Assembly: GCA_938092135.1 (NCBI GenBank)
Contig: CALLJL010000003.1
Coordinates: 62,001-126,000, forward strand
DNA: 64,000 nt
Reading direction: 5' to 3'
DNA from: an uncultured bacterium
GTDB taxonomy: Bacteria; Acidobacteriota; Aminicenantia; Aminicenantales; CALLJL01
The notes below the pieces were generated by a model. That model saw only the letters and a list, made by a program, of their open reading frames with translations, had not been told where the DNA came from and searched no databases. This document shows positions 5,553-12,568 of this stretch, one piece after another (within the stretch, counting starts at the first letter, position 1; every line of letters begins with the position of its first letter). Made by a program: the position numbers and the translations under genes.

Positions 5553-5771
5553 ATTGAATTCCGAAGATTAAAGCTTAAAGGCTAACTTCAGCAGCTATGG
5601 TTATTCTTTAAGAGATGCCTCCAAAGAGCTTAATAAATGAAGCCAGACGTTAGACCGTTTATTATCTAGCTATGCTAACAGGGGATTAAAATGGGGAAAT
5701 AGGATGGATCGGTCGCGAGCAAAATTTGTCCAAAGCGGTAAGTAGTCTCTTCCTCAAATAATTAATTTCCA
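5553..5771. repeat. Copy B of the diverged direct duplication
   Basis: See copy A; aligned blocks at 5553, 5701 and 5762 keep the same 301-bp spacing. Confidence 0.55.
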
Positions 5772-6988: not shown

Positions 6989-9142
6989 ATGAAATTCTCT
7001 TTTAAAAGGAGTTTCTATCTAAAAGTTAGGTTAATTCTTCCTCCTATTATCTTTGTAATTTTATTAGTATCGATTTCATTTTTCCAGCCAAATAAATTGC
7101 CCGCGCCTGGCGGAAAAAATAATTTAAATATACTTCTTATCTCCATAGATACTATCCGGCCGGATAGACTCAGCTGCTATGATTCTCGTTATGTTCAAAC
7201 AGTCAATATTGACAAGCTGGCTCGTCGAGGCCTTGTTTTTGACCGGGCTTTTGCCCACACGCCCCTGACCCTTCCTTCCCATGTCAATATGCTCACCGGT
7301 TTAACACCTCCTTATCATGGCGTCCATGACAATGCCCGTTTCAGGCTGAGTCAGGATATTCAGACGATGGCTGAATATTTAAAGGCCAGGGGATATTCGA
7401 CCGGCGCCTTTGTTGGCGCCTTCCCCCTTGATTCCCGTTTTGGCCTTAATCAGGGCTTTGATGTTTATGATGACCGTTATGGAACTAAAGCTCGGCAGGA
7501 ATTTTTTTATATTGAAAGACAGGCTGAAAAGGTGATTGATGCTTCCCTCAACTGGCTTACAGACCAAAGAAAACCCTGGTTCGCCTTTATCCATCTCTGG
7601 GACCCCCATCAGCCTTATAATCCCCCTGAACCCTTTAAAAGCCAATTTACCCATGATCTCTATTCAGGGGAAGTCGCTTATGTTGATAGCCAGCTTGGCC
7701 GGCTTTTTTCTTTTCTGGAGGCAAATCGCCTTTTTGAAGAAACCATTGTTATCTTAACGGGTGACCATGGAGAATCCTTGGGTGAACACGGTGAATCCAC
7801 CCACGGCTATTTTGCCTACAACAGTACCCTCTGGGTTCCTTTGATTATCGCCTCTCCTCAAATCAAACCTGGCCGGAATAATGATTATGTCTTTCATATT
7901 GACCTTTTTCCGACTGTCTGCGAATTAATCGGGGCTGAGAAGCCCAAAGTTTTGCAAGGACTTTCTCTTGTTCCATTGATAAAGGGCAAGAAATTGCCCC
8001 GCCGTAAGGTTTATTTTGAAGCTCTTTATGCCTATTACAATCGGGGCTGGGCGCCGATTAAAGGCTATTTTGAAGGGGAGAGAAAATTTATTGATTGCCC
8101 CCTTCCTGAATTTTATGACCTCCAAGTCGACTTTGAAGAGAAAAACAATCTGATAGCTCAGGTCAAATTAGATGGCTATCGCCACGAGCTCGAGCAACTT
8201 GAAAAGAATCTCGCCAATCCAAAGGGTAGTGAAAAGCAAATAATAGATGCTGATACCCTTGAGAAACTACGCAGCTTGGGCTATGTGGCCCAGCCCGCAA
8301 TCGCTTCCAAAAAGATTTTTGGACCAGAAGATGATCTCAAAACTCTTCTTCCTTTGCAGGAAAAATTCGCTAAGGCTATGGGTGGTTACCATCATGGAAA
8401 AGTTAAAGAAGCTGTGGCTGCTTTGAAAGAGATAATTGCTGAGAGGAAAAATTTTGATCTGGCCTATTCCTATCTCTCCACAATTTATAAGAGGGAGGGC
8501 CAAATCGCTGAGGCCATAAAAATCTTAAGAGAAGGTCTAGCGAACAATCCTCAAAGCTATTCAATTATCAGTTCCTTCGGCATTCTTCTGGCTGAGACAG
8601 GCCTCCATGATGAGGCTATTTCGGTTCTTCAGATTGGCGTTAGTCTCTGGGATTATGATCCGGAGATGTGGAATTATTTAGGTATGGCTTACTGGGGAAA
8701 AGGTGACTTCGACAAGGCTTATGAAGCCTATGAAAAAGTCCTGGCCCTTGATCCAGATTATCCCATTGTGTTCAATAATCTTGGGTCTCTTTTCCTTTCC
8801 CGCTATTTAAAAAATAACCAACCCGAAGATATCGATAAAGCTCTGAATTATTTTAAAAAAGCTATCTCTTTAGATCCCGAACTGGTTTCAGCCTATAATG
8901 GCCTTGGTGGAGCCTATAAAAAAATAGGCCGATGGAAAGAGGCTATTGATTGCTGGCAAAAGGCTCTTGAACTCAACCCCAATTATGATTTTCCCCTTTA
9001 TAATCTCGGGATTACCTATTATGAGCTCGGAGATAAAAAGGCGGCTTTGAAATATCTCGAAAGCTACCTGAAAGCGAAAAAAAATATTTCAGCTGCGGAA
9101 AAAGAAAAAATAACTACCTTAATCAACGAGTGCCGCCGTTGA
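6989..9142 (+). CDS. Sulfatase/alkaline-phosphatase-superfamily protein with C-terminal TPR repeats
   Basis: NILLISIDTIRPDRLSCY metal-binding N-terminus, TLPSHVNMLTG active-site region, GDHGESLGEHGE; C-terminal TPRs. Confidence 0.92.
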   Translation: MKFSFKRSFYLKVRLILPPIIFVILLVSISFFQPNKLPAPGGKNNLNILLISIDTIRPDRLSCYDSRYVQTVNIDKLARRGLVFDRAFAHTPLTLPSHVNMLTGLTPPYHGVHDNARFRLSQDIQTMAEYLKARGYSTGAFVGAFPLDSRFGLNQGFDVYDDRYGTKARQEFFYIERQAEKVIDASLNWLTDQRKPWFAFIHLWDPHQPYNPPEPFKSQFTHDLYSGEVAYVDSQLGRLFSFLEANRLFEETIVILTGDHGESLGEHGESTHGYFAYNSTLWVPLIIASPQIKPGRNNDYVFHIDLFPTVCELIGAEKPKVLQGLSLVPLIKGKKLPRRKVYFEALYAYYNRGWAPIKGYFEGERKFIDCPLPEFYDLQVDFEEKNNLIAQVKLDGYRHELEQLEKNLANPKGSEKQIIDADTLEKLRSLGYVAQPAIASKKIFGPEDDLKTLLPLQEKFAKAMGGYHHGKVKEAVAALKEIIAERKNFDLAYSYLSTIYKREGQIAEAIKILREGLANNPQSYSIISSFGILLAETGLHDEAISVLQIGVSLWDYDPEMWNYLGMAYWGKGDFDKAYEAYEKVLALDPDYPIVFNNLGSLFLSRYLKNNQPEDIDKALNYFKKAISLDPELVSAYNGLGGAYKKIGRWKEAIDCWQKALELNPNYDFPLYNLGITYYELGDKKAALKYLESYLKAKKNISAAEKEKITTLINECRR

Positions 9143-9324
9143 ACAAAATAACTTCCACTTAATTTCAAATTAAATCTGCCTATTTAAACCGCAAAAGCTG
9201 GCTTTTACATAAACGATTCTTATTTAAAATATATGTTCAACCTTTGCCCCGGAAGCGGAGATCTTAACTCGGTCTATTTATTTGCATCCCCCTAAATAGC
9301 CGCCTGTCGTTGGCGCTTCTCGCA

Positions 9325-9480
9325 TTATCGACGATATTCAAGGGGCAATCGATAGCCCAGCGCCGAATGAACCTAAAGCTGGTTCAAATCATTTCTAATC
9401 CAGGTTTCAATCGCATTATAGGCCTACTCAAAGCAGGTGAACTCATTCAGCCAGAGAAGTTCTTCCTTTATTATGAGGAT
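9325..9480 (-). pseudogene. Relic of an IS3-like (rve/DDE) transposase C-terminus
   Basis: Minus-strand translation KEELLWLNEFTCFE*AYNAIETWIRNDLNQL*VHSALGYRLPLEYRR* resembles the IS3-type ORFB C-terminus (HSALGY.xP.EY), with two in-frame stops. Confidence 0.72.
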
Positions 9481-9715
9481 CATCATTCCGTTCTCGGTAC
9501 TCCTCTTGGAATTATCATATAAACAGAATGCCTAACTTCCCTTATTCTTTCAGCCAGTGTCTAGTTCAGGGATAAAGTTCTCTTCCCTGACTCATCTTCC
9601 TATATTCAGCCATCCATTTCCTGCGCCTCATGCTTCTACCTGATAAGTTGACTATAATCTCTATCTATTAGAAGTGTCTATCTGCTCAAGGGCTTGGGAT
9701 AAAGCAATTATCTAT

Positions 9716-10534
9716 CTAAATCAATTTTTTAGTAGAAGCAATTTCTTTCTTAAGTTCGATAACCTCAACGGGACAGGAAGGAAAATCGTTTTCCCAACAA
9801 ACAACATAATCGCATCTCGTTTGGGCGTGAGTTTTATTTTTTATATGCTCACGAAATTTTGAGGCTTTGAATTCGAATTCAATATATTTCCTTGAAAAAT
9901 TGTCTCCTATTTTTTCAATTGCACATGCGTCAGGAAAACCTGATCTTATAAACTCAATCTTAACGAAGTGGTGACTTCTTATTCTGGTCATAAAATGAGA
10001 AAAGAGCGCCACAACTCCCTGTTCTGATGTGGGTGCGTAATTCATAACTTCTAAATCCATAGGCTCACCTAAGTTTGTGTCATTTGGGCTACCCTTAAAG
10101 AGTGCATTATTAGGAAGCTTAAAAGATTTTATATATTTCTCGATAGAAATAAAATCTTTCTCAGTTATTTCAACTGCAGTTCTATCTTTGAACTTAATCG
10201 CTTTAAATTTTCCTTTGGGAAATATTGATAAAGGAGGTCTAATATTTTCTACTAAATCATGAATTCTTACAAAAAGCGGCGGCTTTGCGAGTCTTCTCTG
10301 TTTAATTTTCATGACAACATGAGGACCTTTCCAAAAGCTGTCATCAGGCCATTCCTTTTTGTTGCTTACTACCTCGAACGTTCCCACCACTACGGAGTCA
10401 CCTTTAGCATAATAAACTATTTTATCGCCTTTGTTTACCTTTTCGATCCTCTCGGACTTGCCTTTTTTATGCCCAATGAAATCACTATGGGCGAAATAAT
10501 CCTTGAGACTATGAATAATAAACCAATATTTCAT
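9716..10534 (-). CDS. EVE-domain protein with a PD-(D/E)xK-like C-terminal nuclease domain
   Basis: N-terminus MKYWFIIHSLKDYFAHSDFIG...VNKGDKIVYYAKGDSVVVGTFEV reads as EVE/PUA-like. C-terminal half has GFPDACAIEK...KYIEFEFKASKF...CDYVVCWEND. Start placed at 10534 (AAGGAG RBS upstream) rather than 10573. Confidence 0.72.
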   Translation of the reverse strand: MKYWFIIHSLKDYFAHSDFIGHKKGKSERIEKVNKGDKIVYYAKGDSVVVGTFEVVSNKKEWPDDSFWKGPHVVMKIKQRRLAKPPLFVRIHDLVENIRPPLSIFPKGKFKAIKFKDRTAVEITEKDFISIEKYIKSFKLPNNALFKGSPNDTNLGEPMDLEVMNYAPTSEQGVVALFSHFMTRIRSHHFVKIEFIRSGFPDACAIEKIGDNFSRKYIEFEFKASKFREHIKNKTHAQTRCDYVVCWENDFPSCPVEVIELKKEIASTKKLI

Positions 10535-11023
10535 CTTATTATGCTCCTTATGTTGCTTCTTAAATAAGATCAAGGAGAAATAATGATTTTATCTCTTTCG
10601 CATCATCCCTCTTGACTATTCTATTTAAAATCAGGGGCCAAGGCAATTCTTCGAAAGTCCTAGGATAAATCTGAGAGAAATTGATTTATTGCCTCATAGT
10701 AAAATCTTCATGAAATTTAATTGTCTTCTCTTAATTAAAACCGATATTTTCAATGGAAACTTTAGATAAGAGATAGATGAATAATAAATTTTGCTATTAA
10801 GTTAGTTAAGAGCGCAAAATGGAGCGATCATGATAGCGAAATGAAGAAAAAGATTTTCCATAGCCTAATTAAATTTAAAAAGGTTGTTTTCAATTACCCT
10901 TTGTCTTTAAATTAAAGGGAATTAAAAGAGCCTTGTTTTTATCCTTTTTTATAGTTAATATCCAGAGAAAATGATAATTTTCCGAATAAAACCTTCTTCT
11001 AAGAAAGAATTGAGGAGGAAAGA

Positions 11024-12568
11024 ATGAACCTCCACTGGGCAGATTTGGCCATTTTTATTTTATTTTTCATCGTGGTGGTTGGGGTAAGTGTTTATAAGAG
11101 CCGGCGACAGAGAACTGGTGAGGAATTCTTTTTAGCTGGCCGTGGCCTCATCTGGCCCCTGATCGGTTTTTCTCTTATTGCCGCCAATATTTCGACCGAA
11201 CATTTTGTCGGCATGTCGGGTCAAGGAGCTGGATTGGCCGGAATGGCCGTGGCCAGCTATGAATGGATGGCAGCGATTACTCTGGTTTTTGTGGCCGCCT
11301 TTTTCCTGCCTAAATTTTTACGTAGCGGCATCTATACCATTCCTGAATTTCTCGAATACCGCTATTCGCCTGTAGCTCGAGCAATTATGGCTTTTTATCA
11401 AGTGATTGTGTATATCGCAGTTAGTATCGCCGCCGTCGTCTACACCGGAGCTTTAGCCCTTCATACTATCTTTGACCTTGATCTTACCCTTTCTGTGTGG
11501 CTCATTGGCCTTATTGCCGCAATTTATACCACCTGGGGAGGACTTAAGGCTGTGGCCTGGGCTGATCTTTTTCAGGGCTCAGGTCTGATTTTAGGTGGTC
11601 TCGTCGTCATGATTCTTGGTTTTAAAGCCGTTGGGGGAGTAAAGGCCTTCCTGATGGCCAATCCCGAAAAACTCCATGTCATTTTACCGGCCAGCCATCC
11701 CGTTGTTCCCTGGACCGCCCTGGTTATTGGCCTCTGGATTCCCAATTTTTATTATTGGGGCTTAAATCAATTTATTACCCAGAGAACTTTAGCTGCCCGG
11801 AGCTTAAGCCAGGGACAGCTGGGAATTATTTGGGCCGCCTTTTTAAAGCTTCTCATTCCTTTCATTATTATTTTTCCTGGCATAATGTCTTATCAGCTTT
11901 TCAAGGACAGGCTCACCGCTCCTGGGGCCACCACGGACATGGCCTATCCATTGCTTATCAGGAATCTGGTTGGACCAGGTCTGCGTGGTTTTATTCTGGC
12001 CTCAGTTGCCGGAGCAGTTATTAGTACCCTCGGTTCCCTTTTGAATTCAGTTTCCACTTTGCTTACCATGGATTTATATAAGCGCCATATAAATAAGGAG
12101 GCCAGGGGCGAATCGCTGGTTAAGATTGGCCGCATAGCTAACCTAATTTTCGTTTTCTTGGTTTGTCTTTTGGCCCCTCATCTCGGCGATCCAAGATTCA
12201 AGGGTATTTTTAATTATATTCAGGAATTTCAGGGTTATATTTCCCCAGGAATTCTGGCCGCTTTTCTTTTTGGGCTTTTCAGCCGGAGGACTCCCGCGGC
12301 TGCCGGGATTACTTCTCTTATTGCCTGTGTGCCCATCTATGGATTTCTCCAGTTGAAGTTTGGCCACATTGCTTTCCTGAATCGAATGGCCATAACTTTT
12401 GTTATCTTGATAGTAATTATGACCATCATTACTCTTTTTAAGCCTCTTCCTGAACCAAAAAAGCTTCCCCTTCAAGCCAATTTTGATCTTAGACCAGCTC
12501 GATCGCTTAAATGGCTTGGGCCTCTGGTAATAATCATAACTTTAATTCTCTATGCCATTTTCTGGTGA
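11024..12568 (+). CDS. Sodium:solute symporter (SSS) family transporter
   Basis: Multi-TM; GEEFFLAGRGLIWPLIGFSLIAANISTEHFVGMSGQG and YTTWGGLKAVAWADLFQG motifs. Confidence 0.92.
   Translation: MNLHWADLAIFILFFIVVVGVSVYKSRRQRTGEEFFLAGRGLIWPLIGFSLIAANISTEHFVGMSGQGAGLAGMAVASYEWMAAITLVFVAAFFLPKFLRSGIYTIPEFLEYRYSPVARAIMAFYQVIVYIAVSIAAVVYTGALALHTIFDLDLTLSVWLIGLIAAIYTTWGGLKAVAWADLFQGSGLILGGLVVMILGFKAVGGVKAFLMANPEKLHVILPASHPVVPWTALVIGLWIPNFYYWGLNQFITQRTLAARSLSQGQLGIIWAAFLKLLIPFIIIFPGIMSYQLFKDRLTAPGATTDMAYPLLIRNLVGPGLRGFILASVAGAVISTLGSLLNSVSTLLTMDLYKRHINKEARGESLVKIGRIANLIFVFLVCLLAPHLGDPRFKGIFNYIQEFQGYISPGILAAFLFGLFSRRTPAAAGITSLIACVPIYGFLQLKFGHIAFLNRMAITFVILIVIMTIITLFKPLPEPKKLPLQANFDLRPARSLKWLGPLVIIITLILYAIFW

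Follow-up and report, generated by a model that had tools for sequence, protein, structure and literature searches.

Restriction enzymes that combine an EVE domain with a nuclease domain are established or predicted in two forms, EVE-HNH and EVE-PD(D/E)XK (PMC7897488, PMC7641849). In 2020, Bell, Wolf, and Koonin reported EVE-PD(D/E)XK fusions and predicted them to act in Type IV restriction (PMC7641849). In the EVE-HNH enzyme VcaM4I, the base-binding pocket contains the residues P24, W82, and Y130, and EVE domains that have been characterized as parts of restriction enzymes recognize modified cytosine (PMC7897488). For many domains of the EVE/PUA superfamily, RNA binding or a connection with toxin-antitoxin systems or cell death is known (PMC7641849).

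The locus compared here with these systems is part of a 64,000-nucleotide stretch of DNA, which is designated the window. Its central features are as follows.

9716..10534, minus strand: EVE-nuclease gene, 272 aa (open reading frame and translation, two full-length relatives, codon-position divergence)
10544..10549, minus strand: Shine-Dalgarno sequence AAGGAG, 9 nt 5' of the ATG (direct sequence read)
10124..10534, minus strand: EVE domain, residues 1-137 (PF01878; PRK00809 and PH1033, both weak and collinear)
9737..10060, minus strand: PD-(D/E)xK-like nuclease domain, residues 159-266 (family conservation, ExK-bearing relatives)

The encoded protein agrees with the EVE-PD(D/E)XK class in the pairing of EVE with a PD(D/E)XK nuclease, in the occurrence of EVE at either end, and in the predicted modification-dependent restriction; it differs, in a comparison made by description alone, in the presence of ExE instead of ExK and in a nuclease domain for which Pfam has no model (PMC7641849). 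With VcaM4I it shares an N-terminal EVE domain of about 140 to 150 aa, a linker, a C-terminal nuclease, a total length of about 270 to 310 aa, and the character of a one-gene enzyme without an NTPase, whereas the nuclease is HNH in VcaM4I and PD-(D/E)xK-like here (PMC7897488). The initial annotation had called the nuclease an unusual partner, and this applies to the uncatalogued ExE subfamily but not to the EVE-PD(D/E)XK fusion itself, which had been published (PMC7641849). What is added is an ExE nuclease subfamily modeled by none of the four libraries searched and spread over several defense contexts, which is set apart from the published class by description only.

With a probability of about two-thirds, the EVE-nuclease should be a restriction endonuclease of the modification-dependent (Type IV-like) kind, built as a single chain. 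An EVE sensor and a nuclease-like domain are joined in one chain, with no cognate methyltransferase gene adjacent, and the same assignment in the initial annotation gains support from the Pfam EVE match, the conservation within the nuclease family, its ExK-bearing relatives, the defense neighborhoods of relatives, and the empty insertion site. In foreign DNA, the EVE domain would flip out a modified base, most probably a derivative of cytosine, and the C-terminal PD-(D/E)xK-type domain would cleave the DNA nearby, using E171, D202, E219, and E221 together with a divalent metal ion, presumably as a dimer. Activity of the C-terminal domain is not assured because the canonical lysine is a glutamate. 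If the assignment is true, a small one-gene enzyme is at hand whose modified-base specificity is directly testable.

The gene, its EVE domain, and its site of insertion

The initial annotation had placed the gene correctly at 9716 to 10534, and the open reading frame is read on the minus strand, from an ATG at 10534 to a stop codon at 9716 to 9718. Two full-length relatives were found, one in a Syntrophaceae MAG (L001, 71% identity) and one in an Aminicenantes MAG (L002, 65% identity), both sharing the start residue with the window protein (MKYW). A Bdellovibrionales MAG carries a C-terminal-only copy (L003), and two further related fragments are L004 and L005. Divergence between the relatives was about 22% at codon position 1, 16 to 18% at position 2, and about 55% at position 3, so that the third position diverged about 2.5- to 3.6-fold more than the other two. 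Because divergence is concentrated at the third position, the pattern expected of such a protein, the EVE-nuclease appears to be under selection.

The N-terminal half had been read as an EVE domain, and PF01878 indeed matched residues 18 to 132 with 25.3 bits, above the curated gathering cut-off of 23. The NCBIfam model PRK00809 (UPF0310) was collinear with residues 1 to 135 at a score of 21, far under its cut-off of 139, and the nearest solved protein by profile was PH1033 (PDB 1wmm), a stand-alone EVE protein with a weak collinear match (E 0.04) along the EVE domain; unlike the window protein, PH1033 has no nuclease. In the AlphaFold models, the EVE region reached a pLDDT of only about 50 to 80, and a close template was lacking.

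The EVE domain may alternatively bind modified tRNA or phage transcripts, with the C-terminal domain acting as an RNase and the protein as an abortive-infection effector. The RNA binding within the EVE/PUA superfamily and its ties to toxin-antitoxin systems and cell death speak for this (PMC7641849), but the nuclease family is tied to DNA restriction and to DNA-binding HNH_repeat modules, and the window copy has no antitoxin gene beside it, so that an RNA target is quite unlikely.

The gene resides in a segment that is missing from a genome of the same genus, G336.

9143..10931, strand not applicable: segment missing from G336 (insertion); the flanking genes are adjacent in G336 and homology at the DNA level resumes at 10932
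about 9254..9528, minus strand: transposase relic (IS3-like by inspection) interrupted by stops and frameshifts, with 69% identity to a transposase piece in G336:C53

By inspection, a sulfatase-TPR gene ends at 9142 and a gene for a sodium-solute-symporter-like transporter starts at 11024. With the same gene order, these flanking genes are separated by about 175 bp in G336 and by 1,881 bp in the window. The EVE-nuclease gene and the IS relic lie within an insert of about 1.8 kb. The segment was unmatched in nineteen other relatives. The GC content of the EVE-nuclease gene is 35%, compared to 41.5% for the window. Gain by insertion in the window genome is the simplest explanation of this arrangement of sequences, and loss in G336 instead is possible but less likely. 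The earlier description of a monocistronic gene alongside an IS relic was borne out, and its proposed horizontal gain is supported by the empty site.

No other defense genes adjoin the EVE-nuclease gene in the window, and neither of its two neighbors is a DNA methyltransferase gene by inspection. This bears on the possibility that the protein is a stand-alone nuclease for sequence-specific restriction or for DNA processing, in which EVE provides general DNA binding instead of detecting a modification. Other members of the nuclease family do rely on HNH_repeat and not on a modification sensor for their presumed targeting. However, the characterized EVE domains of restriction enzymes detect modified cytosine (PMC7897488), and an enzyme for unmodified sites would attack its own host since a cognate methyltransferase is absent beside the gene, leaving this explanation very unlikely.

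The C-terminal nuclease-like domain

The three motifs named in the initial annotation, GFPDACAIEK, YIEFEFKASKF, and CDYVVCWEND, were all found and in that order. Their conservation was evaluated in an alignment of 33 homologues of the domain.

10022..10024, minus strand: E171, acidic residue of helix 1, kept in 31/33 homologues
9929..9931, minus strand: D202 of the PD motif, kept in 31/33
9872..9880, minus strand: E219-F-E221, the ExE motif; E219 in 30/33, E221 in 29/33, with K at position 221 in L022 and L024
9866..9868, minus strand: K223, the lysine of the motif as first annotated; in 8/33, constant only in the EVE-nuclease clade

W247 was invariant in all 33. The E-x-K register had been set at E221-F-K223, and these counts shift it: the conserved pair is E219 and E221, and the EFK reading was rejected as the catalytic motif of the family, K223 being kept in just 8 homologues. 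The assignment of the C-terminal domain to a PD-(D/E)xK-like nuclease type was retained, owing to family conservation and ExK-bearing relatives, with ExE replacing EFK as its motif. In the EVE-nuclease clade, K223 could be an accessory residue because positions 219, 221, and 223 would share one face of a strand.

In the divergent members L022 (ELK), L024 (PD, EFK), and L086 (PD, EWK), the canonical lysine occupies the position of E221. A profile built without these three proteins matched them with 46, 24, and 22 bits, respectively, where shuffled sequences scored at best 5.5, 8.4, and 0.5, and homology of the domain to canonical PD/ExK domains was thus observed. The order of a PD, a (D/E)x(K or substitute), and an acidic helix residue upstream was also found. 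Because the motif is conserved and the ExK-bearing divergent members match the profile, the family appears to be related to PD-(D/E)xK nucleases, with a glutamate in most members where the usual lysine would stand. BamHI is a PD-(D/E)xK restriction enzyme with an E-D-ExE arrangement of acidic residues. The family has the same arrangement of acidic residues as BamHI-type enzymes, a resemblance of motif only, and differs from them in that sequence similarity is undetectable.

Residues 159 to 266 had no significant match in Pfam, NCBIfam, PADLOC, or the PDB sequences, and PHROGs gave a marginal match only, none being significant. The matches to Pfam ZP-C (0.037), PHROG 23396 (0.004 to 0.018), and a globin and an azoreductase of the PDB were judged to be chance or unusable. 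Members of the PD-(D/E)xK superfamily have often diverged beyond the reach of a profile search. With this divergence and the absence of a profile match to a known nuclease, the domain is labeled "PD-(D/E)xK-like" and not filed as a member. Two AlphaFold models calculated from a four-row alignment had mean pLDDT values of 52 and 45, and a Foldseek search with these models, which were too poor, found nothing. The predicted order in the C-terminal domain was a helix at 171 to 183 followed by strands, which, at a low model confidence (pLDDT below 60), would be compatible with the alpha-beta-beta-beta-alpha-beta core fold of PD-(D/E)xK nucleases.

The change of the canonical lysine to glutamate across most of the family would also fit a PD-(D/E)xK relative without catalytic activity that detects or binds nucleic acids and serves, together with EVE, as a recognition adaptor for further defense proteins, such as the Type I or BREX machinery. 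Inactive REase domains of BREX-related helicases have been proposed as nucleotide sensors (PMC12839542), and Type I, BREX, and Hma genes adjoin relatives of the EVE-nuclease. The four acidic residues, however, are strongly kept without drift, the dead-looking members L012 and L020 lost all four together, and the window gene is solitary, with no partner to serve. A role as such an adaptor is accordingly unlikely, and cleavage by the EVE-nuclease continues to be the preferred reading.

The degenerate members are HNH_repeat proteins (L012/L021 and L020; G120:C48, G364:C45) with a C-terminal nuclease domain from which E171, D202, E219, and E221 are all gone; they are probably dead nucleases that a single genus within the window's class has kept. 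Two proteins of about 257 aa (L024, G091:C111; L086, G1183:C180) have alike uncharacterized N-terminal regions and a canonical PD/ExK C-terminus that is distant kin of the nuclease-like domain family.

The nuclease-like domain is present in several phyla. Whole-genome searches found it in a few percent of the genomes sampled from three phyla, namely the window's own and those to which L005 and the Syntrophaceae relative belong, while among 189 genomes from the phylum of the Bdellovibrionales relative, it was present in that relative alone. The searched phage and plasmid collections contained no relatives. A phylum search centered on G406 led back to the window's phylum and contributed little. 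The record with fragment L004 (JARYMI010000118.1) is titled Clostridiales, and the phylum search centered on its genome gave the same hits as that of the window's phylum, so either title and GTDB placement are in conflict or the bin is mixed.

Neighborhoods and domain architectures of the relatives

A search of the neighborhoods of homologues, proposed in the initial annotation as a check, located known anti-phage genes beside several relatives (L002, L004, L043, L041, and L046) but not beside the window gene; a handful of loci was inspected, and the result is descriptive, without a formal background rate. Beside L002, the order is HsdS upstream, HsdR (1144.7 bits, PADLOC), 140 bp, the EVE-nuclease gene, 341 bp, and Mrr (286 bits). 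A HsdM gene follows the C-terminal part of an EVE-nuclease by 22 bp in L004. HmaA, HmaB, and HmaC (PADLOC) are followed after 12 bp by a nuclease-EVE gene with the reversed domain order in L043. BREX genes for PglZ and BrxL precede a nuclease fusion in L041, from the sister lineage. Dcm and Vsr genes are located a few kb from a gene for the nuclease and a C-terminal domain in L046. The full-length relative L001 has a gene for a 162-aa REase_II-like protein upstream (49 bits), in a stretch that also holds genes for DNA polymerase A and ATPases, and housekeeping-type genes that are not defense-like surround L044 (G178).

An N-terminal EVE joined to the nuclease-like domain is shared by the window gene, L001, and L002. 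The order is reversed in L009, L056, L069, and L076, whose C-terminal domains are called EVE-like because all four gave weak Pfam EVE matches (E of 0.1 or below), under the cut-off wherever a score was shown. A profile-profile comparison of the N-terminal EVE with these C-terminal domains gave no significance. HNH_repeat arrays are joined to the nuclease-like domain in L012 (49.8 bits) and, under the cut-off, in L022. By inspection, a GHKL-type ATPase precedes it in L071 (G446:C58) and in L088 (G406:C111), the nuclease-like match of L088 being marginal at 13 bits.

The tree separated the N-terminal-EVE clade from the main clade with a C-terminal EVE (support 98/95), and L007, with its different N-terminus, adjoined the N-terminal-EVE clade (92/84). 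Because the two clades stand apart, the tree, which has many weak forks, suggests that EVE and the nuclease may have been paired independently. The C-terminal domain may represent an uncatalogued PD-(D/E)xK family with an E-PD-ExE site. It would be an interchangeable cutter that was combined independently with HNH-repeat arrays, a GHKL-type ATPase, and EVE sensors on either side, and that Type I, BREX, and Hma loci took up as an accessory; as a whole, this proposal is a tentative one, at slightly below even odds. If the reading as a restriction enzyme is true, the restriction repertoire would gain an unmodeled nuclease family that current defense-finding profiles miss, PADLOC giving no match. 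From the apparently independent partnerships with EVE and from the place of the nuclease as an accessory in Type I, BREX, and Hma loci, one could then ask whether modification-dependent cutters are a routine backup of modification-based defenses.

Two further arrangements were observed. The proteins L007/L016 (G203) and L055 (G504), from different phyla, have in common an uncharacterized N-terminal domain of about 230 aa, which in L007/L016 had no Pfam match; L007/L016 is encoded next to the BREX genes for PglZ and BrxL. At 5764 to 6570 of L044 (G178:C64), the nuclease and EVE-like domains occur as two adjacent short open reading frames in the window's own order, and this pair is a nuclease-EVE gene that has either been split or undergone a frameshift.
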